Positions 12,891 through 37,757 of a DNA stretch of 37,757 bases are shown here, in pieces. This DNA is from a virus, in the IMG/VR virus record IMGVR_UViG_3300044998_001203, positions 1 through 37,757 of that record; one strand, 5' to 3'. Under the pieces are notes generated by a model. It was not told where the DNA came from and did no database searches. It saw only the letters and a program-made list of their open reading frames with translations. Each line of letters begins with the position of its first letter. The stretch's first letter is position 1. Made by a program: the position numbers and the translations under genes.

Positions 12891-13388
12891 TTACCTATCG
12901 GCTTGCGTGAATTCAGTATCCTTAAACAGGGCTTTTAGGCCACTAATCTGCTTTAATCGGAGGAGTTCTTCGGCATCCATGCCAATATGTCGAAGAATCC
13001 ACTGGTCTGACATTCCAGCCGCGACTAAGTCGGCAACGATGTTGACCATCAATTCGATGGAATGTGATCCGCGGGCCCGGTTATGGCGAATAGTGCTGGC
13101 CATACGGTTGCTCAAATCTTTATCTATTACCACTACTGGTAATAATCCGCGTTCGCGTTCGCGGATTCTTTCGCTGGTTAACATTACCGTGTATCTGTGG
13201 TAACCATCTACAATCTCATATTTGTTTGTGTCTGGCACGCGGTAGCAGACCACAGGCTGGGTGTAACCATCCTCCCATATCGACAGCTCTAGTAGTCGCA
13301 TCTCGGGGGGGGCCACGCTGTTGGGATTGTAGGCATTGGCCTGTATTTGGTCAATAGGAATTGCCTGAACTTGGTAAACGGGGCTCAT
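12891..13388 (-). CDS. ibrB: IbrB-like ParB-domain protein, 165 aa
   Basis: Residues about 9-75 match the ParB/Srx-type nuclease-like domain: IDQIQANAYNPNSV, a loop, then DGYTQPVVCYRV and EIVDGYHRYTVM, where the GxHR motif is the family signature. The C-terminal part is helical with a second small domain. It overlaps the IbrA-like gene by 4 nt. The pair of a PAPS-reductase-like protein and a small ParB-like protein is the IbrA/IbrB arrangement, described in E. coli as activators of prophage eib genes. Whether this one regulates, binds or modifies DNA is not shown. Confidence 0.82.
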   Translation of the reverse strand: MSPVYQVQAIPIDQIQANAYNPNSVAPPEMRLLELSIWEDGYTQPVVCYRVPDTNKYEIVDGYHRYTVMLTSERIRERERGLLPVVVIDKDLSNRMASTIRHNRARGSHSIELMVNIVADLVAAGMSDQWILRHIGMDAEELLRLKQISGLKALFKDTEFTQADR

Positions 13389-14626
13389 AAGTTCATGTAT
13401 CGGTTAAGAGTGGATAACTTACGCTCTTGTTCTTCCTTGGTTGCCGCAAAACCCATATACTTACATAGTATGTCGTTTTTAAGTATACAAACACACATTC
13501 TTTTGTAGCTTGGTATTTTATTGAAATAACTAGACTGTATTTCGTCTATGTAATCCAATTTAACTTCACCTTTTTCATTCTTTTTATATTCTATCATGTT
13601 TTTATCTAAATCTTCTATGGCTTCAATAGGTAATTTCCCTCCCTTTGTGCGCCAAAATTTTAGGCTTACAGCTAATTTTTCACGATACCTTTGCGCGGTA
13701 TCCTTTGGCAAGGTATCTAGAAGAAAATCGCAGTATTCCTTCCATGTAAAATGTTTTGGCTTAGTAATATTTCGCCATCCCATTGCTGTTGTGTTACCGT
13801 AAATAGCGGCAAAGTTTACACCATTTACTCTGCTCACCATCTTGCCCCAGGTGTGCGGTTCTAACACACGGTAGAGATGTAGGCTTGCTATGCCTTGTTG
13901 CAGAAATGGGCTTGCTACGCGCATCTCATGTATGCTTAAGCCTGCCTGATGCATCAGGTCGTATAGCCGATTATTTGGCCAATCCTCCTTCGCATAGGCT
14001 CGCCAGATATCTTCGGTTTGCCAATCATATATTGGGTGAGCTACGTCCGTGCCATTTGGCAGATGTTTCCACCACTTGTGCCCATCCACTCGATTGCCTT
14101 GGTCTTGCTCCAATGCCCGCCAGCGATTTAGGCTTTCTTGCATACGCAGCCCAAGCAGCACGATTGTCCTTTTAGCGCCCTTATGTTTATGATGCCAAGG
14201 GGCAAACTCATGCCCAAACTCATAGTCGGTAATATCTGGCCGGTAAAAGTCAAAGTCTTTGGCAGTATAGGCATTTGGCGGCATTTGTCTTACCCATATA
14301 CTTTTGTCGGCATCAGCCCAGGGTCGCCAGTAGGGCGAATTCATGTGGGTGGCGCACCCAGCGTTAAATTCCACGCAGCAGTGGTAAATATCGGTTACGT
14401 CTGTAACGTTAGAATGTGCATCTAGTACATATTCGGTAGTGGCTTGATATTGACACTCATAATCAAGATGCAGAACACTAAATCTGCGGCCTAACTCACG
14501 TGCAATTTTCGCGGTCAGAAAAAGGACAATTCCACTATCTTTTCCCCCGGAAAAACTTACAATAATGTTATCGGCCGCATTAAAAAGTAGTTTAATACGC
14601 TTTTCGGCAGCTTGATATACGTTCAT
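13385..14626 (-). CDS. ibrA: IbrA-like PAPS-reductase-family protein, 413 aa
   Basis: An adenine-nucleotide alpha-hydrolase/PAPS reductase fold with the PP-loop SFSGGKDSG at residues 24-32, where ATP is bound. Downstream are HLDYECQY, an HCC...C cluster, and a long C-terminal half of the DUF3440 type found in IbrA proteins. PP-loop enzymes of this group activate a substrate by adenylation; DndC of DNA phosphorothioation is a relative at the fold level. I set the start at ATG 14626 because it overlaps the helicase stop (ATGA); an ATG at 14641 would add five residues. AT-richer than the tail genes. Confidence 0.85.
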   Translation of the reverse strand: MNVYQAAEKRIKLLFNAADNIIVSFSGGKDSGIVLFLTAKIARELGRRFSVLHLDYECQYQATTEYVLDAHSNVTDVTDIYHCCVEFNAGCATHMNSPYWRPWADADKSIWVRQMPPNAYTAKDFDFYRPDITDYEFGHEFAPWHHKHKGAKRTIVLLGLRMQESLNRWRALEQDQGNRVDGHKWWKHLPNGTDVAHPIYDWQTEDIWRAYAKEDWPNNRLYDLMHQAGLSIHEMRVASPFLQQGIASLHLYRVLEPHTWGKMVSRVNGVNFAAIYGNTTAMGWRNITKPKHFTWKEYCDFLLDTLPKDTAQRYREKLAVSLKFWRTKGGKLPIEAIEDLDKNMIEYKKNEKGEVKLDYIDEIQSSYFNKIPSYKRMCVCILKNDILCKYMGFAATKEEQERKLSTLNRYMNL

Positions 14627-16113
14627 ATTGTTTCCCTCCAATTTTTGGAATTATGTATAAATTCATGTAGCCCAAGTTTGGTTGAAAGACATTTATGAAT
14701 AATGGTATCAATACCCATGCTAGTGCTAAAGTCTACATAAGTAACTGGATGAGATTGTCCCATCCGGTGTAGCCTATCTTCCGCCTGTATCCGCTCGCTA
14801 AAGTTAAAGCTATTACTGACAAATGCAGCCTTACTTGAATGGGTTAGGTCAATGCCTAAACCTGCAACTGCGATGTTGCACACTAATGCGTCTTGGCTTT
14901 TTCGCCAGTTAGCAAGGATTTCCGGCCTCGCTTGTGCTGGGGTGCGACCATCATAAGGTATCGCACCTGGAAGATGCTTTGCCAGCCAATCTACCTCGTG
15001 ATGATAGCGGCAATAAATTACCTTGGGTTCTTTAAGCGACAATGACCAGTTACGCACTGCTACTAATTTATCCGGCACTGTTGCTGTCCAATCGCCTTGC
15101 TGGCCACTTATTATTTGCTGAAGTGCGGTAAACAGTTCGTATACCATGTTTACACTGTTCCCGCCAAACCACTTATTTAATATTTGGTGTTTCGTGTCGT
15201 GGTACTTTACCACGGTTTCTTCGCTCAACTTTACGTGTATTGTTTCTTGCAGTTTTGCAGGCAAGTTTAGTACAGCCTGTTTGGTGCAAGTGAACCATAC
15301 AGGTTCAAGTGATGCATACAGCTGGGGCTTATCTGAATATCCAATAACCCTCCCTTTGTCCTTAACTATAAACCTGCGCTCAAAGGCTTCTTGCGACATG
15401 CCTTGCACAATGCTAAGGCTAGGGTCTAAGATAGCCATTTGTCCCCATAGATCAGCCGGTGAGCGCGGCACAGGAGTGCCGGAAAGAGCGTATCTGTAAA
15501 CGCAGTGTTTAGCGATTTCGATGCAACGATAGTTGCGCCAAGTGTCGCCGTTTTTGACCCAATGCGCCTCATCCACTATTAGCATTGTGGGTTTACGCCG
15601 GACGAATTCAAGTGATTCATTAAACTCTCTGACCGAAAGCGAAAGGCTGTCTAGCCCAACAAACTTAAATTCTAAATCAGCGCCGCCTTGTTTTTCAATT
15701 TCAGCTACTGCGTTGGTAATAGTTTGCAATGGAGCGGCCCAGATAACTTGACTGATTTCCCCGGTGCTAGCCCTGGCTTTAGCTAATTCAAGGGCAATTT
15801 TGGTTTTTCCTGTGCCCATCTCAAGGTATAGTGCCCCGAAAAAATATTGTGACACTTTGGCAAAAGCTTCTTGCTGATGCGGAAGCATCTCTGGTACTGA
15901 TATTTTGCCAGCGGCAGATGGTTTCGCGGGCGATATTACACGCGGATAGATGCCTTTTGCTTCTGCTAGCCATAGAGGCACGTGGTATCCGCCTTTACCA
16001 GCCGAGCGGACCGCAGACTTAGGCAGCCAATACTGGCCAGCATCTGACACTACTTTCCAAGCTTTAGGCGTTTGGCTGAGTATTTGGGCTTCAATGTAGG
16101 TATATTCACGCAT
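14623..16113 (-). CDS. SNF2-family DNA helicase/translocase, 496 aa
   Basis: Superfamily 2 ATPase with Walker A MGTGKTK (99-105), DEAH (181-184), motif III SGTP (211-214), and motif VI QAEDRLHRMGQ (443-453), which is the SNF2-type signature. The N-terminal 70 residues are an extra domain of unknown role (GQYWLPKSAV). It is compact and lacks large SNF2 insertions. It should move on double-stranded DNA using ATP. It overlaps the IbrA-like gene by 4 nt and the upstream unknown gene by 8 nt, so the proteins are made together and probably act together. Confidence 0.9.
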   Translation of the reverse strand: MREYTYIEAQILSQTPKAWKVVSDAGQYWLPKSAVRSAGKGGYHVPLWLAEAKGIYPRVISPAKPSAAGKISVPEMLPHQQEAFAKVSQYFFGALYLEMGTGKTKIALELAKARASTGEISQVIWAAPLQTITNAVAEIEKQGGADLEFKFVGLDSLSLSVREFNESLEFVRRKPTMLIVDEAHWVKNGDTWRNYRCIEIAKHCVYRYALSGTPVPRSPADLWGQMAILDPSLSIVQGMSQEAFERRFIVKDKGRVIGYSDKPQLYASLEPVWFTCTKQAVLNLPAKLQETIHVKLSEETVVKYHDTKHQILNKWFGGNSVNMVYELFTALQQIISGQQGDWTATVPDKLVAVRNWSLSLKEPKVIYCRYHHEVDWLAKHLPGAIPYDGRTPAQARPEILANWRKSQDALVCNIAVAGLGIDLTHSSKAAFVSNSFNFSERIQAEDRLHRMGQSHPVTYVDFSTSMGIDTIIHKCLSTKLGLHEFIHNSKNWRETI

Positions 16114-28007: not shown

Positions 28008-28442
28008 TCAATAGGCGCTGTTGTTGCGTGGTTCTTGTCGGTTGCCAAATCGGCGGAAAGTATCTGGTTGTACGGTTCCATCTTCGCCCACCTTAGGCGA
28101 CAGCCTTGGGGTCAGCTCGCCCCGGCTCATTTTAGCCAGCATCTCCTTCGCCTCCATATACCTCGCCACCCGTGGGGCGGGCACTTTCTGCGGTTCCAGC
28201 GTGTGGATAAGCTGGTAAATCATAATGTCGCCCACAATGCCCAGCAGCGTTGCGTTACGGGCATCACCTGTTTGGCTGAACTCTGCCTCTAGGTCATACA
28301 GGTTGCCAATGTGCGTATGCACCGTCTCCAATGCCAATTGCTCAGCACGGGTTAGGGTCACCTCCAGTTTATCATTGCTGATAGCCTTAAGCCCGTAATC
28401 CGAGATTACTTTGGTCAGGTCTTCTTCAGTCAGATAGGTCAT
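28008..28442 (-). CDS. Mu gp36-like protein (DUF1320), 144 aa
   Basis: Small helical head-completion protein. YLTEEDLTKVI at the start and a conserved helix with ARNATLLGIVGDIMIYQLIHTL fit the gp36/DUF1320 family, which binds near the portal. The C-terminus has a Gly/Pro/Asn-rich tail ending in RFGNRQEPRNN. It overlaps terL by 4 nt. Confidence 0.82.
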   Translation of the reverse strand: MTYLTEEDLTKVISDYGLKAISNDKLEVTLTRAEQLALETVHTHIGNLYDLEAEFSQTGDARNATLLGIVGDIMIYQLIHTLEPQKVPAPRVARYMEAKEMLAKMSRGELTPRLSPKVGEDGTVQPDTFRRFGNRQEPRNNSAY

Positions 28443-30031
28443 ATTCCTCGGTTTTTATTGCGGCCTCCACCCATCCGGTAGGTGCCAGTTGCTAATGCTT
28501 GGGTACCATGTTGGAGCTTCATCACGCCGCCCTCCAGACAGTCCGGACCGTCATCCACTTGCCTTCGGTTTTGCGGATTAAAGCTGACCAGTTGGGCGCG
28601 GAGCGTCTCCCAATCCGAACGCTCTTTTAGGCGCTCATTAAATTGTACAGATCCCAAAACCACCAATCCGGAAAGCTGCTCTATCCGGCGCTGCTTATTC
28701 AGTTTTCGGTCGGTGTCTTTAATTATGGGCAGCACTTGGCCTCTCAGGCGCGCCACCTCATCAATCGTCACTTGCAGTATCCCTTGCTGAAAGGTTGCCT
28801 CGTAGTAACTCACCACTCGCGGGCGCACATCGGTGGGCAGACTGTAGTACCAATCGTACGCCCAGCCTATCCACGTCGGCACATCACACTGTCTCACAAA
28901 GCAGTCTAACAACTCTAGCACCTGGCTTCCGCGCCGTTGACCTAGCACCGTCCATGCCTTATAGTCGGCTACATTGCTAGCCTTATAGCTAGGGTCGCCG
29001 TACAGTACGATGCTCTGATATTCAGTCCAATCGGCCACCGGCTGCCACTTAAAGTCAGCCTCGCGAAAGCAACTGCCAGATACAATCGGATTGTTCATAT
29101 ACTCGGCCTGGGCAGAAGTGTACGGCATACTGTTCATTAGCGCAGCCACTTCTTCGCGGGTGTACTTCTCGGGCCAGCTGGGCTCTCCGTCTTCATTTAG
29201 TGCGTTCACCTTGCTGTAATACCAGCCTTTGTCCTGTGCGTGCTGAACCATCTTAGCCAACAATCCTTTCGGCCCTATCCGGTTGCCCACCATCACATAC
29301 GTGCCGCGGCCCATATCCATCGACCCATACACCGAGCCCAGCAGAAACTTGAATTTGGTCGCAACTATCCGCTCATTGTCCACCCACTGGTCGTTGTCTA
29401 CATCATCTATCAGAATGTAATCCGGGCGGAACTTGCCCTGTCGGCTGCCACGTGGGGGTTTCTGGAGGGTGTAGCACTTAAAGGCCACACCTCCGGCAGT
29501 CACAAAGTGATCATCTTCCCACTGACCATAGTTATACATCACGCCGTAATCGGCCACCAGTCGCTCGTTGTTTTCCAGCTCCATTTTCAGCGCCGATACC
29601 AGCTCTTTCACTTTATCCTCGTCCGGGCCAATGTATAGCATGTATTTCAAATTGCCCCTACACATCTCCCACAGAGGGAATCCTACACCTAAGTGAATGC
29701 TTTTGGCATGCCCGCGGGCCCATTCTAGCACTGCCCGTCCACTGCGGGGGTGCGCCTGTAGATAGGCCATAGCCTCTCGGTGGAAGCTAGCAATTGGCAC
29801 ACGTTTTTTGTGCACCACGCCGGTGAGCGGGTCCTTTGTCTCCTCTGTGGCTAAGTGACCCAAATAATACTCAAAAAACGCCGCATAGTCATTCTCCAAC
29901 CGCTTTTTACGCTCCAGCACATGGCTCCATTCCTCGTGCGGTTGGGTAGCTTGCCCCTCTCCTATCGACCGCCACAAAGCATTTGCTTCCTCCAATTGGG
30001 CTTTAACCTTGGGCGGCAGTTTCACGGGCAT
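28439..30031 (-). CDS. terL: Large terminase subunit, 530 aa
   Basis: Packaging motor: ATPase domain with Walker A ARGHAKS (105-111) and Walker B YILIDD (205-210), followed by the RNase H-like nuclease with its first acidic residue in YGDPS (Asp346). The Arg-Gly-His-Ala-Lys-Ser P-loop and the overall plan are like Mu gp28-type terminases. The ATG lies 38 bp after an exact 21-bp motif copy and about 590 bp downstream of terS. Confidence 0.92.
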   Translation of the reverse strand: MPVKLPPKVKAQLEEANALWRSIGEGQATQPHEEWSHVLERKKRLENDYAAFFEYYLGHLATEETKDPLTGVVHKKRVPIASFHREAMAYLQAHPRSGRAVLEWARGHAKSIHLGVGFPLWEMCRGNLKYMLYIGPDEDKVKELVSALKMELENNERLVADYGVMYNYGQWEDDHFVTAGGVAFKCYTLQKPPRGSRQGKFRPDYILIDDVDNDQWVDNERIVATKFKFLLGSVYGSMDMGRGTYVMVGNRIGPKGLLAKMVQHAQDKGWYYSKVNALNEDGEPSWPEKYTREEVAALMNSMPYTSAQAEYMNNPIVSGSCFREADFKWQPVADWTEYQSIVLYGDPSYKASNVADYKAWTVLGQRRGSQVLELLDCFVRQCDVPTWIGWAYDWYYSLPTDVRPRVVSYYEATFQQGILQVTIDEVARLRGQVLPIIKDTDRKLNKQRRIEQLSGLVVLGSVQFNERLKERSDWETLRAQLVSFNPQNRRQVDDGPDCLEGGVMKLQHGTQALATGTYRMGGGRNKNRGI

Positions 30032-30069
30032 ACAGGCAAAACTGTCATCCAGCCCAAATACGGAGGCTC

Positions 30070-30090
30070 AGCATAGCCGGTTAACGGCAG
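30070..30090 (-). promoter_or_regulatory. 21-bp late motif, copy 1
   Basis: Identical over 21 bp to 11937-11957. It ends 38 bp before the terL ATG, almost the same distance as at the DUF6046 gene (40 bp). Confidence 0.62.
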
Positions 30091-30189
30091 GATATCACAC
30101 CTGTAGCGTTTCTAATTTTAAGTACCAAGACCAAAAGCCCAGCCTTCCTTTCAGGTAATCCAGAGAAGTATAGCATTTTTTGCTTTTGC

Positions 30190-30468
30190 TTGTAACATTG
30201 TAACATTTCGTTGTAATTAATTCATTATCAATTACTTATAGCGTTACAAGCTTGTAACATTCAGGGGGTACTTGTAACACGTTTATCAACCTATCGTTTG
30301 GTAAAACCGTTACAACCTTGTTACCGACCGCTCCAGTTTGTAACAGCCCTAGAGCTACTTCCAGAGCTGTTTTTATGTATTTAGTATATTTAAAGTGTTA
30401 CAGTATTGTAACACTTATAAAATACTGATTATCAATATATTACGGGCAATTTAGAGGCAATGTTACAA
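30190..30468. other. Cluster of TTGTAACA repeats between terS and terL: possible origin or packaging site
   Basis: TTGTAACA occurs at 30190, 30198, 30252, 30272, 30338 and 30406, and its reverse (TGTTACAA or GTTACAA) at 30243, 30309 and 30461. Two pairs form palindromes: GTTACAAGCTTGTAAC (30243-30258) and GTGTTACA-GTAT-TGTAACAC (30395-30414). The region is AT-rich and has TTATCAA boxes at about 30223, 30283 and 30427, which resemble weak DnaA boxes. The 588-bp gap (30032-30619) holds no gene. Iterons and AT-richness suit an origin; the place between terminase genes also suits a TerS-binding pac/cos site. Confidence 0.7.
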
Positions 30469-30548
30469 AAAATCCCAAGTCATGCAAAAAAACACATTGT
30501 TGCGCTCAGGCACGTCACGCTCGTGTCATCACGCGCGCGCGCGTATTA

Positions 30549-30584
30549 AGCGTCAAGCGATGGGCTAACCCCAAGCTTAACGCT
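30549..30584. other. Inverted repeat downstream of terS
   Basis: AGCGTCAAG (30549-30557) pairs with CTTAACGCT (30576-30584), with one G-T pair, over an 18-nt loop. There is no T tract, so I do not call it an intrinsic terminator, but it may end or process the terS transcript. A CG-repeat (CGCGCGCGCG) lies just left of it. Confidence 0.45.
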
Positions 30585-30619
30585 CCATCTTTCTGCGAGA
30601 TGTACAGATTGCCGCGTAC

Positions 30620-31102
30620 TTACTCTTGCGACTTTTTGGCCTTCATTGCCAAAAATTGCCCCACATGCTCAGCCATTTGGGCGGCCAGCACAGGGTTGGC
30701 CTGGCTGATGTATTTGCCGAACTCCCGCATCACCTCTATTGTGTTGGGCAAACTCGCCCCCTCCTTTAACATCTTAATGGCCGTTATAGCCTTTATCCGC
30801 GCATCCCACATTGCCGTATCGGCAAAGCCTATGGGGTGGCCATCCTTATCCACCTTTTTTCGTACTGCTCTGTCCATCGCCGCGAGCTCGCCCTGATACA
30901 CCGCAGCCTGCTGGGTGGGAGATCGGTTAGCCGCATCCCGCAGCTCATTCCAATATCCTTTCCGCACCCAATCGCTCACCGTGTCGGGATGCACATTCAG
31001 CCGCTCGGCAATATCGCGCTGTGTATCCCCGCTCAAATAGTACTCCATGGCCAAAATCTGTTCGGCCTGCTTGGCATTTTGTTTACCGCGTATCACTTTC
31101 AT
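30620..31102 (-). CDS. terS: Small terminase subunit, 160 aa
   Basis: The N-terminal helix-turn-helix (DTQRDIAERLNVHPDTVSDWVRKG, about residues 26-49) is of the homeodomain-like type found in small terminase subunits; the middle has helices for oligomerisation (AAMDRAVRKKVDKDG, RIKAITAIKMLKEG), and the C-terminus is Lys-rich. It should recognise viral DNA and recruit TerL. The gap to terL (588 bp) is unusually long and contains the repeats. Confidence 0.82.
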   Translation of the reverse strand: MKVIRGKQNAKQAEQILAMEYYLSGDTQRDIAERLNVHPDTVSDWVRKGYWNELRDAANRSPTQQAAVYQGELAAMDRAVRKKVDKDGHPIGFADTAMWDARIKAITAIKMLKEGASLPNTIEVMREFGKYISQANPVLAAQMAEHVGQFLAMKAKKSQE

Positions 31103-31224: not shown

Positions 31225-31232
31225 TATATTTG
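31225..31232 (+). promoter_or_regulatory. -7-like element TATATTTG for the lone + strand gene
   Basis: TATATTTG matches TAnnTTTG and lies 15 nt before the ATG at 31248. I do not see a well-spaced TTG upstream (the nearest, at 31182, is 40 nt away), so an activator may be needed. Confidence 0.5.
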
Positions 31233-31247
31233 CAAAACTCTAGTAGT

Positions 31248-31562
31248 ATGTCCAGAGTCAAGGCAAAATTGTATTCCAAAAACTGGTGTATCTATCAGGA
31301 TTCTATTCTGCTCCAGCGGCAAATAGACTCCGCCAAAGGCCGACCGCCCACGCTGGATGAAATCATCGACCGACTGGCCCGCAAGCACTTTATGCGACTA
31401 AAAGATGTGCGCTACGTCTTGCGCCACGTAGGCCTGAACAACGGCAAGGTTATACCAGTCAACTACACGCCTTCGCACCTCGATGTAGACGATAGCTACT
31501 GGGCGTTGTTGCCCGGTAGCCCTATCCAGGAGCTTATCAAAACGGAGTCTCCTCCTCTATAG
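31248..31562 (+). CDS. Lone + strand hypothetical protein, 104 aa
   Basis: A basic N-terminus (SRVKAKLYSKNW) precedes a helical region with ARKHFMRLKDVRYVLRHVG, a pattern like DNA-binding or HU/integration-host-factor-like 'HU family DNA-binding' proteins of Bacteroidota, though this is only a weak resemblance. It ends LIKTESPPL, overlapping the convergent primase-helicase gene by 26 bp. Divergent from terS and opposite to both operons, it is well placed to act as a late-gene regulator, which is an inference. I used ATG 31248; a TTG at 31230 is in frame. Confidence 0.7.
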   Translation: MSRVKAKLYSKNWCIYQDSILLQRQIDSAKGRPPTLDEIIDRLARKHFMRLKDVRYVLRHVGLNNGKVIPVNYTPSHLDVDDSYWALLPGSPIQELIKTESPPL

Positions 31563-34095
31563 GAGGAGGTTTTGCCACCGCACCGGGTGTGGCAGGGGCC
31601 TCGGCAATCCGTTTTGCCCGCGCCTCTTCCCACAGGGCCTGTACGCGCTTGCTCGCAAATTCGCGCAGCGCAAATTTATAGGCTCGGCCGTTATGCGGTT
31701 TCAGCGTCCACCGCTCATCCGGGTCCACCAGCTCATGCACCGGCGCGCGGCCTATATCAAACACGCTATCCGGGTCCTTGGTCTCGCTCACCGACGCTTC
31801 GGGCTTTGTGCGGTCTGGCTTCAGATAGCGGCCCACCGGCAGTCCGTTGGTGGTCACACCCATACGTTCCAGGAGCTCTTTGAGGTAGTGTGGCTCAAAC
31901 TTGCGTCCCGCTGTTTTGTTCAGCAGCTCCAGCAGTTGCTCTTGGTTAAAGCCGAATTCCGGGTTGTCCTTGCTGCTCTCCAATATCCGTTTATCCTCCC
32001 AGATGTCGTCCCAAATACTCTCCATCAGGTTATACACGGCTTTTTCATTCCACGGAATATTCGCCTGCTTAGCCTTACGACCTGCATCTGTTTCTAGTAA
32101 ACCTTCTTCAAACCACATACGTCCCTTTTTCGGGTGAGTTATCGCCCGCTCCCGTAAATAATGCACAAAAGCAGGTATTTCTTTCAGCATTTTATCCAAT
32201 AAATTCGGGTCTTTTACTTTCAATTTCGGCACTTTAACTACTAAAAAGCGGTTTTCTTCGCGCTCTACGGGTAAAAATCCAGTCTCTTTATTGCTCGCAA
32301 TACATATTTTGAGAATACAATTTATTTCAACCCCGTTCATTCCTTTCTGCTCGTATATCGCCTTTTTGGCGGTCGATAGCGACTTAAGTGTCTCCAACAC
32401 CTGCGGTTTGTCCTCTTTTAATTCGTCAATAAATAAATACAATTTAGAAATATAATAAGCATTGAACTTATCATTCGCTCGGCTGGAATCAATAAATACC
32501 GCATTATCCCCAAAAATACCTGAAATAAAATCATACCAAGTCGTTTTCCCCGTTTCGCGCGTGTTACTCACCAGTACCAAGATGGGCAATTTTTGCAAAG
32601 GGTATCGATATAATATTGTCAAATAATCCAGCATCAATTCATATACGTTTTGAAATTCATTGTCATACAAATGCCGCAAGTAGGATTCTATGGTCGGCCA
32701 AACGCCCTCATCCGGTTGCACTACGGGCGGATTGTATAAATTATAATAAGCCATATCGTTATGAGGCTGGAAAAATTCGCGCTGATATTTGGCCGGATCG
32801 TTTTCAGGCACATTTATAAAATCAGAAAACAACGCCCTGTTTTTGATAAACACGTCATAGCTAAGTTGTTTTTGACGTAAAATCTCCTTAATCGCACCTT
32901 TATCAAATATTGAGATCGTGCGACTCATTACGCCTGTATACATGTCGCGCTGGTAATCTTCCTTGAAATGTTTGTCACCCACCATAAAATATCGCGCCAT
33001 GTCTTTACTGCGCTTCATCGTGGGATATCTGCCCTTCTCATCGCCGTCATCCGCCACACTATAAATATTTCCCTCAAAAATAAAATCCTTCATCTCTATC
33101 TGTCCGGCGTGGCGCTGGTAAAATCCCTCCACCGTATACACGCCAAAGGCCTCATACACCTGCCTGCGGCTGCTGCCCTTGCCCAGCCCATGTATACTAA
33201 AGTAGTGCTGCGCATGGGTCAGCTGCTGCAAATCCTCCAAAATCAGGTGTTCACGGCCCGGTCGGCTGCTAAGCAGGTCGTCCAGCCCCTTCGGGTCCTC
33301 TGCCCCATACTCCCCCGTATCCTCGTTGTGGTATGCGCGTATACCCTTGCGGATGTGCCCCCAATAGGTGTCCACCTCTTTATAGTCGCCACCCTTCACC
33401 GCTTCATGCAGGCTTACCGCCGCGTTGGCGAAGGATTTCAAACGCTTACTTCCGTCCTTTTCGGCGCTCCAGGTATAGTCCATGCAGTCTGCATCGTATA
33501 ACATCACCAGATTCTTGACTTTGCATTTGCGGACAATCCGCAAAATGTCGCCAAACAACCGCTTATTGCCCGATTTGTCTCGCTCCTTAAAGTTGTGGAT
33601 TCCGCCCACACCCACGGTGTATAGGCCGTGGTGCGTGGCCTTAATAGCCTTAAACTCACCTTCGGTGATCACCAGTGTATCTATCTCTGTGCCATCGGTA
33701 TAGGCTTTGCGAAGCTTGCCGGGGAAGAATGGATAGTTGGGGCTCCCTTTAGGCTGGCGATACTTCGGTGCGTCGCCTGTCAGGTTGTGCGGCGCCACGC
33801 GCGTACGGTAGTAATCCGTGCCCTCATCGCCTTGGTTGAGCGTGCCTTTGTCCCAAGTGTAGGGCGAACCATCCAGCCGCGTGTACCAAATACGGATATT
33901 CCCCGCCTGGTCTAGCCGTAGCATGCCCTCCACGTCTTCCATCCGCATGCCCATCTCGTGTAGTCGAAGGGTCAGGTAATCGACGGGCTCCGGGTGGGCA
34001 GCACTTTGCGACGCATCGGTTATCTCCATTAGGGCATCCTCTGCGGCTACGTGCTCGCTTGCAGGTGATTGTATTTCGCGCTCTAGGTCAGTCAT
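31537..34095 (-). CDS. Primase-helicase: TOPRIM-like domain plus SF3/D5-type helicase, 852 aa
   Basis: Replication protein. The N-terminal half has a DUF3854/TOPRIM-like domain (LVITEGEFKAIKA 141-153; MLYDADC 198-204). The C-terminal half is a superfamily 3 helicase: Walker A SNTRETGKTT (510-519), Walker B LYLFIDEL (552-559), then a sensor-like CIASNKE segment. Such a protein primes and unwinds DNA at an origin. I chose ATG 34095, after the methyltransferase stop; the frame to 34257 would overlap it widely. A Pro/Ala tail ends the protein. This is the last gene of the early operon. Confidence 0.9.
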   Translation of the reverse strand: MTDLEREIQSPASEHVAAEDALMEITDASQSAAHPEPVDYLTLRLHEMGMRMEDVEGMLRLDQAGNIRIWYTRLDGSPYTWDKGTLNQGDEGTDYYRTRVAPHNLTGDAPKYRQPKGSPNYPFFPGKLRKAYTDGTEIDTLVITEGEFKAIKATHHGLYTVGVGGIHNFKERDKSGNKRLFGDILRIVRKCKVKNLVMLYDADCMDYTWSAEKDGSKRLKSFANAAVSLHEAVKGGDYKEVDTYWGHIRKGIRAYHNEDTGEYGAEDPKGLDDLLSSRPGREHLILEDLQQLTHAQHYFSIHGLGKGSSRRQVYEAFGVYTVEGFYQRHAGQIEMKDFIFEGNIYSVADDGDEKGRYPTMKRSKDMARYFMVGDKHFKEDYQRDMYTGVMSRTISIFDKGAIKEILRQKQLSYDVFIKNRALFSDFINVPENDPAKYQREFFQPHNDMAYYNLYNPPVVQPDEGVWPTIESYLRHLYDNEFQNVYELMLDYLTILYRYPLQKLPILVLVSNTRETGKTTWYDFISGIFGDNAVFIDSSRANDKFNAYYISKLYLFIDELKEDKPQVLETLKSLSTAKKAIYEQKGMNGVEINCILKICIASNKETGFLPVEREENRFLVVKVPKLKVKDPNLLDKMLKEIPAFVHYLRERAITHPKKGRMWFEEGLLETDAGRKAKQANIPWNEKAVYNLMESIWDDIWEDKRILESSKDNPEFGFNQEQLLELLNKTAGRKFEPHYLKELLERMGVTTNGLPVGRYLKPDRTKPEASVSETKDPDSVFDIGRAPVHELVDPDERWTLKPHNGRAYKFALREFASKRVQALWEEARAKRIAEAPATPGAVAKPPPIEEETPF

Positions 34096-34109
34096 CTTTA
34101 AATTGCTAA

Positions 34110-35033
34110 TCAGAATAGTTGCGGGTGGGTTACTTGCTTGAACAGAGCGGTCTCGGTGCGGGGCACTTTGGCAGATAGAGCCCTTGCACCTAGCAAGCCC
34201 GAAACGCGGGTGCGGGGCGCCGCGTGAGATACTGCGGCAAAGTCTAGTTTTGTCCACCCTGCATCCACCAGGGGTTGATATACCGGGTGCCAGTAGCAGC
34301 TCAGCACTGCGCTGCCTTTTAGGTGTAGCAGCCTGTCCACGAGTGCTGCGTGAAATTCCAGCGGTTGTTCGTGGGCGTATTCCTTGCCCTTGCGGGTGCT
34401 GTGTTCGTATGGCGGGTCGAGGTAGAATAGCGTTTCTGGCGTGTCGAATATCTCAATTACCTCCAGCGCGTCGCGGTTGTGTATCTGTACGTCACGCAAA
34501 CGTTGGCAGTACCAGTCAAAGAGCTTTTGGCGCTTCAGGAAGCCGTTTACGGTACGGGCTTTGCCGCAATTGGAAACGGTTATAGCCGTTCCCCAGCTGC
34601 CAATACCTGTAGCCCTACCCGAAAACCCTTGGTTTTGCCCCACGAAGAACGCCCACGCATCCAGCACCTCGTTGCCATAGATACCCTGTAACTCTCGCAA
34701 CCGCGCGGGCCACTGGTTTGTAGGCCGCTGTAAGATGATGAGCGCGTCTCTGTACTCTTCCTTGGCATACAGCGTGTAGCTTAACAGGTGGTGCAGCTGT
34801 GCGTTTTGGTCAGGGTGTTTGAGCACCCGAAACAGGTTGACCAGTCGTTGGTCTAGGTCGTTGTACACTTCCACGGGGCTGGGCTTGCGGCGGATGAGGA
34901 TATTGCCCGCGCCGCCGAACGCGTCCACGAAAGTCTGGCACTGGGGCATGAGCGGCAGAATCTTACTGTGCAGGTTGCCTTTGCCGCCAAACCATTGGAC
35001 GGGTGCGAGTATGCGCGTGGGGGGTTTGGTCAT
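34110..35033 (-). CDS. D12-class adenine DNA methyltransferase 1, 307 aa
   Basis: N6-adenine methyltransferase. Motif X FGGKGNL (11-17) and motif I FVDAFGGAGN bind AdoMet; DPPY (motif IV) forms the catalytic site. The C-terminal part carries the target-recognition region. I chose ATG 35033; the frame to 35108 includes the end of the upstream gene. No restriction enzyme gene is nearby, so it is an orphan that probably protects phage DNA or marks regulatory sites. Confidence 0.9.
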   Translation of the reverse strand: MTKPPTRILAPVQWFGGKGNLHSKILPLMPQCQTFVDAFGGAGNILIRRKPSPVEVYNDLDQRLVNLFRVLKHPDQNAQLHHLLSYTLYAKEEYRDALIILQRPTNQWPARLRELQGIYGNEVLDAWAFFVGQNQGFSGRATGIGSWGTAITVSNCGKARTVNGFLKRQKLFDWYCQRLRDVQIHNRDALEVIEIFDTPETLFYLDPPYEHSTRKGKEYAHEQPLEFHAALVDRLLHLKGSAVLSCYWHPVYQPLVDAGWTKLDFAAVSHAAPRTRVSGLLGARALSAKVPRTETALFKQVTHPQLF

Positions 35034-37071: not shown

Positions 37072-37757
37072 TGGTTGGGTTGGTGAAGGGTGAGGAATTC
37101 GTCTATCCACTCCACTGTGATAGCGGATACTTGGTTGGTCTTAGGCGTGTCGCCAACCGATATGCCGGTGAACCACCGCTCGGTGGGGCTGTAACCGTCT
37201 GGCTTTAGACCTTCAATCTTGTCGTATTCGCACCCTCTTGTCTTGGCCACAGTGCCTACGAAGCAGCGGCACTCGCCTTGGTAAGCACTTCCATCCACTT
37301 TGCCGCCGACTAGTGCCTTTCTTAGCCCTGGTATCTCGTTCGGTACAATGGCTAAGCGTTTGAAGAAGTCGGCTTTGATTTCACCTAAGTTGGCTTCGCG
37401 CAAGTTGGAACCCGCAAAGTTTGCGCGGGTGAGTTTTGCGCGGGTGAGTTTTGCGCCCGTGAGGTCTGCATAGCGCAAATTTGCGCATGTGAGGTCTGCC
37501 CAGGTGAGGTCTGCCCAGGCGAGGATTGCGCGGGTGAGTTTTGCAAGGGTGAGGTCTGCGCGGGTGAGTTTTGCGCGGGTGAGGATTGCGCGGGTGAGGT
37601 TTGTCCAGGTGAGGTTTGCCCAGGCGAGTTTTGCGCGGGTGAGTTTTGCAAGGGTGAGGTCTGCGCGGGTGAGGTCAGCGCGGTTACCTTCTCTCCCGTC
37701 GGTCTCCAGCCACAAAGCGTGGCTCGTGAGAATCTTGTTTAGTTCAAGTTGCGTCAT
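37068..37757 (-). CDS. Pentapeptide-repeat protein, 229 aa
   Basis: About 20 tandem A(D/N/K)LTx pentapeptides (residues 26-124) should form a right-handed four-sided beta-helix. A conserved C-terminal domain (about 150-229) has ECRCFVGTVAKTRGCEYD, ERWFTGISVGDTP and TVEWIDEFL, as I have seen in other phage-borne pentapeptide proteins. The ATG is exactly at the window end (37757, same as 127), so the gene is complete only when the circle is closed. Known pentapeptide proteins of the Qnr/MfpA type mimic DNA and protect gyrase; whether this one does is unknown. The first residues (TQLELNKILTSHALWLE) form a helix. Confidence 0.85.
   Translation of the reverse strand: MTQLELNKILTSHALWLETDGREGNRADLTRADLTLAKLTRAKLAWANLTWTNLTRAILTRAKLTRADLTLAKLTRAILAWADLTWADLTCANLRYADLTGAKLTRAKLTRANFAGSNLREANLGEIKADFFKRLAIVPNEIPGLRKALVGGKVDGSAYQGECRCFVGTVAKTRGCEYDKIEGLKPDGYSPTERWFTGISVGDTPKTNQVSAITVEWIDEFLTLHQPNQ
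37386..37682. repeat. 15-bp periodic repeats coding the pentapeptides, with a 105-bp internal duplication
   Basis: Units like TTTGCGCGGGTGAGG repeat every 15 bp. A block encoding RADLTLAKLTRAKLA (residues 31-45) recurs 35 residues later as RADLTLAKLTRAILA, so a seven-unit (105-bp) step duplication is visible. Confidence 0.85.
37631..37757. repeat. Terminal direct repeat, right copy
   Basis: Identical to bases 1-127; see the left copy. Removing one copy leaves a 37,630-bp circle. Confidence 0.95.

Follow-up and report, generated by a model that had tools for sequence, protein, structure and literature searches.

What is the role of a cluster of short repeats that lies in a non-coding gap between terS and terL, two phage genes that are usually adjacent? 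We addressed this question in a window of 37,757 bp, which is the whole of an IMG/VR record and encodes a tyrosine integrase, a Mu-like portal protein, terS and terL, and a 906-aa primase-helicase. An earlier note on this DNA had offered three options for the repeats: an origin served by the primase-helicase, a packaging site bound by TerS, or an array bound by a regulator. We find that the array is very probably the iteron-type replication origin of the phage, read by its own primase-helicase (31537–34257) in the manner of the satellite phage P4 and the SaPIs.

The nearest terL relatives among genomes are nearly all from Bacteroidota, and the host of the phage is therefore probably a member of this phylum. 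The two ends of the window share an exact 127-bp repeat (1–127 and 37631–37757). Because 127 is a frequent k-mer length of assemblers, this repeat is probably the sign of a circular contig rather than a biological end. It falls within a pentapeptide-repeat-like gene.

A dense repeat array interrupts the packaging genes

The terL gene (28439–30031, minus strand; PHROG match, phrog_38) and the gene for a terS-like HTH protein (30620–31102, minus strand; phrog_4151) flank a non-coding gap of 588 bp (30032–30619) that houses the proposed origin. As the earlier note had described, this gap is AT-rich, with a GC content of 41% compared with 55% for the window overall, and contains no credible gene. 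The remark that such an insertion is unusual is likewise borne out, since among 134 related pairs the median terS–terL gap is 3 bp, and only 5 of these pairs have one above 60 bp. None of these five relatives has a TGTAAC cluster, and an inserted ORF occupies two of the larger gaps (L141 and L145). On the far side of terS, an ORF of 110 aa on the opposite strand (31230–31562), without a Pfam or PHROG match, lies between terS and the primase.

The array itself (30190–30468, 33% GC) contains ten TGTAAC cores in both orientations, in agreement with the nine or more copies counted before; seven are exact copies of TTGTAACA and three carry one mismatch. Iterons 1 (30190–30197) and 2 (30198–30205), both TTGTAACA on the plus strand, form a direct tandem with a step of 8 bp. 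Iteron 3 (TTGTAACG, one mismatch; 30242–30249, minus strand) and iteron 4 (TTGTAACA; 30252–30259, plus strand) together make a 16-bp perfect palindrome, GTTACAAGCTTGTAAC (30243–30258), and are followed by iterons 5 (TTGTAACA; 30272–30279, plus strand), 6 (TTGTAACG, one mismatch; 30308–30315, minus strand) and 7 (TTGTAACA; 30338–30345, plus strand). Iterons 8 (CTGTAACA, one mismatch; 30396–30403, minus strand) and 9 (TTGTAACA; 30406–30413, plus strand) form a second inverted pair (30393–30416), and iteron 10 (TTGTAACA; 30461–30468) lies on the minus strand. Two perfect palindromes had been claimed for this region; the first stands as such, whereas the second has perfect arms of 10 bp around a GTAT centre that is not palindromic.

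Every exact copy of TTGTAACA in the entire window lies within 30190–30468, six on the plus strand and one on the minus strand, and TGTAAC occurs 17 times in the window, with 10 of these cores packed into 277 bp. In 100 dinucleotide shuffles of the whole window, TTGTAACA occurred 1.1 times on average and at most 5 times. When TGTAAC was counted in shuffles of the whole window, no 277-bp stretch contained more than 3 copies. When the AT-rich gap alone was shuffled 5000 times, TGTAAC had a mean of 0.59 copies and a maximum of 5, and the top count for any 6-mer over 3000 shuffles of the gap was 7. Judged by these shuffles, the array is a short-repeat cluster in AT-rich non-coding DNA that exceeds chance.

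The most AT-rich stretch of the array (30356–30470), where 100-mers of 23–25% GC are among the lowest in the window, is a candidate unwinding element. No DnaA box with fewer than two mismatches was found in the gap, and the hits of a promoter and terminator scan did not rise above the shuffle level. The cumulative GC skew has its maximum at about 27 kb and leaves the array unmarked; gene orientation may explain this skew. Within the array we also observe two of the three copies of TTATCAAT in the entire window (30225–30232 and 30429–30436), which are part of an imperfect direct repeat of 22 bp.

The array accompanies the primase-helicase gene and not the terminase genes

We compared the surroundings of primase-helicase relatives with those of terminase relatives, both gathered by alignment searches; single-sequence searches with the primase or terL against viral contigs, and with the primase against genomes, gave no match. 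The primase-gathered set comprises 28 non-redundant full-length loci, the window included, with duplicates and truncated copies set aside, and the terL-gathered control set comprises 167 loci that span 2.58 Mb and in most of which terS adjoins terL. An array was counted at a primase locus where at least six GTTACA/TGTAAC copies cluster no more than 5.5 kb from the gene.

By this definition, 11 of the 28 full-length primase loci have an array, mostly downstream of the gene, and no other hexamer forms clusters in as many of these loci as GTTACA. The array lies about 40 bp downstream of the primase in L281, about 60 bp downstream in both L189 and L203, 70 bp downstream in L310, and less than 200 bp from the gene in L206. 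Larger downstream distances are seen in the window (1.07 kb), L204 (1.6 kb), L205 (1.7 kb), L191 (2.3 kb) and L308 (3.4 kb), and in L311 the array is found 5 kb upstream. The array-bearing relatives sit in other genetic settings, namely unrelated phages and chromosomal elements. One further locus, L306, has an array of a variant word, TGTTTCAA. By our criteria, no clear array was found at 10 of the 28 full-length homologues and L288 has only a weak one, with contig ends cutting some of the loci. The viral contigs L240, L242, L243 and L245, whose primase matches are no more than remote, also contain 7–10 copies of GTTACA per 300 bp.

By comparison, GTTACA/TGTAAC clusters are absent from all 167 terL-gathered loci, even at a threshold of five copies per 300 bp. 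The contrast of 11/28 with 0/167 gives a Fisher p of 7e-11, a value to be taken as a guide and not as an exact probability because homologues within the same set are partly related. The repeats thus lie near, and usually downstream of, the gene for the proposed cognate initiator and recur with that gene elsewhere, as is expected of an iteron origin, and this comparison strongly supports the option of an origin served by the primase-helicase. Several observations count against the origin reading: some full-length homologues have no clear array, the GC skew leaves the array unmarked, the winged-helix match of the isolated C-terminal domain (below) is weak, terS separates the primase from the array in the window, and in a twelfth genome, G740, a 12-copy array is distant from the primase along the linear contig.

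The same comparison bears on the second option, a packaging (pac) site in which TerS-bound repeats mark the first cut of the terminase. The array does adjoin both terS and terL, the terS-like protein has an HTH domain, and the 127-bp terminal repeat closes the contig, an arrangement that headful packaging would permit. Repeats bound by TerS should nevertheless be conserved with the terS/terL module, and the TGTAAC cluster occurs in 0 of the 167 loci that carry the same module. Conversely, TGTAAC-word arrays are present in 12 loci without a detected homologue of the window terS or terL, one of which, L189, adjoins a tyrosine integrase gene. A terL profile found nothing in five of the viral records, in a search that had no positive control of its own. 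We consider a pac site highly improbable. For the array-bearing phages G740 and G741, Pfam and PHROG searches named no terminase genes. In the control set, clusters of at least five TGTCAA copies were observed in 9 of the 167 terS–terL loci (L008–L175), and these are possibly binding sites for another protein of these Mu-like phages.

A shared protein could also account for a shared array. Each of the 142 window ORFs that reach 70 aa was compared with the other 12 loci that have an array, L306 among them. Only the primase matches, which leaves no second shared protein to explain the array and makes TerS or a shared regulator an unlikely binder. That the primase is shared is to be expected, since similarity to it was the basis on which these loci were collected. 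Most of them are stretches of 8–20 kb, and a shared gene farther away may have escaped the comparison. The result weighs on the third option, in which a repressor or activator of the phage or host would bind the array as an operator or late-promoter region that controls terL and the head genes. Such control would suit a gap upstream of a late operon that starts with terL, as well as the operator-like palindromic pairs, and two promoter-like matches on the terL strand overlap iterons, a number not above that in shuffles (2 compared with 2.8). With no other window ORF shared, however, the array would need a host protein as its binder, or a different, unrelated regulator in each case; moreover, the arrays of relatives lie mostly downstream of the primase, and their word changes with the helicase. 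We therefore regard a regulator array as very unlikely.

If the element is a plasmid-like prophage, the repeats could also be its site of partition (parS-like) or incompatibility, to which a ParB-type protein would bind. Partition is among the functions that iteron arrays can have, and the window does encode a ParB-domain protein (12891–13388). This protein is encoded 17 kb from the array, however, and no homologue of it was detected in the loci that bear arrays, which renders a partition site exceedingly improbable. The ParB-domain gene (phrog_2159, E 4e-75) adjoins a putative 418-aa PAPS-reductase-family-like gene, and the pair spans 12891–14641.

The reading of the array as a replication origin also accounts for the interruption of a normally contiguous packaging module in the window. 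The packaging genes of Mu-like relatives are contiguous, and at least one such relative (L015) has a transposase, so that phages of this kind would not need an origin of the array type. We infer that the phage combines a Mu-like packaging module and an integrase with a P4-like replication module. The location of the array amid the packaging genes is probably incidental. An additional role of the array in late transcription or packaging is no more than conceivable.

The predicted initiator combines a DnaG-like core, an SF3 helicase and a winged-helix-like C terminus

The proposed initiator is encoded on the minus strand (31537–34257) and is 906 aa long when read from a GTG codon. Its sequence contains DUF3854 (E 2.8e-5) and DUF5906 (E 1.5e-13) domains, its family matches are to generic phage primase families only, and its only sequence match in the PDB is NrS-1 (E 4e-19). 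An AlphaFold2 model built from a 29-sequence alignment has a mean pLDDT of 79.7. Residues 1–88 are predicted to be disordered, and the true start may thus lie downstream. In the model, residues 89–382 resemble the catalytic core of DnaG (1dde, Z 12.9), residues 417–863 match the C-terminal region of NrS-1 (Z 25.6, RMSD 3.8 over 360 residues), and residues 414–799 match the SaPI5 primase-helicase (Z 17.9). The protein thus has both a DnaG/TOPRIM primase core and an SF3-type AAA+ helicase.

The C-terminal domain (residues 726–906; 31537–32082, minus strand) is the part that we propose binds the iterons. The order of its helices and strands is winged-helix-like, and taken alone it gives weak matches that include the winged helices of a plasmid initiator (4pt7), a Rep–DNA complex (5kbj) and Cdc6/Orc1 (2qby). 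With Z scores of at most 5.3 throughout, a winged-helix assignment is suggestive, and a Foldseek search with the isolated domain returned nothing with E below 1.

Array grammar, and array words that vary with the helicase lineage

In 12 arrays, the TGTAAC core is mostly followed by A, with T in L189 and C in L205. The commonest step between neighbors in the same orientation is 9–10 bp, or one helical turn. Among close inverted pairs, six have an exact step of 10 bp, which places two cores on either side of a 4-bp spacer; both inverted pairs of the window have this spacer, with 10 bp from start to start, and the spacing recurs in relatives. Most of the arrays are AT-rich relative to their surroundings.

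The origin might work as follows. The winged-helix-like C-terminal domain would bind TGTAAC iterons that stand alone, that follow one another directly at a distance of roughly one helical turn, or that form inverted pairs with a 4-bp spacer. Primase-helicase subunits would then assemble into SF3 hexamers that surround the array, and the AT-rich stretch (about 30356–30470) would melt. Finally, the helicase would translocate, and the DnaG-type primase domain would prime synthesis on circular phage DNA. Each of these steps, from iteron binding and hexamer assembly to melting, priming and the direction of replication, is proposed by analogy with known initiators.

More distant DUF5906 proteins, many of them of about 400 aa, have arrays of other words. 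TCAACA, TGATGA or TGATGC repeats in two orientations lie at or just past the 3′ end of the gene in L193–L201 and L292, and arrays of ACCTAA, ACCGAA or ACTACA lie near the gene in L314–L316. The helicases beside these own-word arrays are both ~400-aa and full-length DUF5906 proteins of Bacteroidota genomes. We placed the array words on a tree built from the helicase and C-terminal regions of 39 proteins, in which several long branches, including that of the window, are poorly supported. The words require 16 changes on this tree. With the labels shuffled the figure is 22.1, and none of 200 shuffles came as low; the TGTAAC group alone requires 7 compared with 10.5 (8 of 500 as low). The array words follow the helicase tree.

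It is plausible, at slightly less than even confidence, that DUF5906 primase-helicases constitute a widespread and undescribed group of iteron replicons, common to phages and integrative elements of Bacteroidota, whose word (TGTAAC, TCAACA, TGATGA, TGATGC or ACCTAA/ACCGAA) is dictated by the C-terminal domain. If so, elements that share an iteron word could replicate from one another's initiators. Apart from this possibility, helicase domains with differing target words provide a natural series for testing DNA recognition by initiators, and origins can be placed together with their initiators from sequence alone in many phages and integrated elements of Bacteroidota with apparently unstudied replication.

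Comparison with known replication systems

This kind of origin, the iteron type of P4 and the SaPIs, is already known, and it is the lineage and the words that appear undescribed. In the literature on DUF5906/DUF3854 and iterons, taken at the level of titles and abstracts for the DUF5906 papers, we found no description of such origins.

In pRN1, the origin lies directly downstream of the gene for the primase-helicase ORF904, a protein that ends in a winged-helix domain (PMC4234260). The pRN1 origin contains one large stem-loop, in contrast to the iterons observed here. NrS-1 shares the DUF5906 helicase domain and is the top structural match (Z 25.6), but it carries a PrimPol domain (PMC9611036) where the window protein has a DnaG-like core.

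The SaPI Rep C-terminal domain recognizes iterons immediately downstream of its own gene, and the C-terminal domain of SCCmec Cch2 binds a downstream region, with deletion of the direct repeats abolishing Cch2 binding (PMC7581432). The primases of SaPIs belong to the archaeo-eukaryotic type (PMC7581432). The phage studied here resembles SaPI5 Pri-Rep, a structural match (Z 17.9), and Cch2 in the pairing of a helicase with downstream iterons, and differs from them in its DnaG-like core, its iteron words and the terS gene that lies between the primase-helicase gene and the array.

The P4 origin has repeats of about 8 bp in both orientations. The winged helix of P4 alpha binds the origin repeats, after which the protein, a TOPRIM primase, unwinds and primes (PMC4234260). 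By its predicted layout, the window protein likewise unites a TOPRIM primase of the DnaG type, an SF3 helicase and a putatively winged-helix-like C terminus in one protein, which would bind the repeats. The differences are that the word has a TGTAAC core and that the element is a full phage, with hosts probably among the Bacteroidota.
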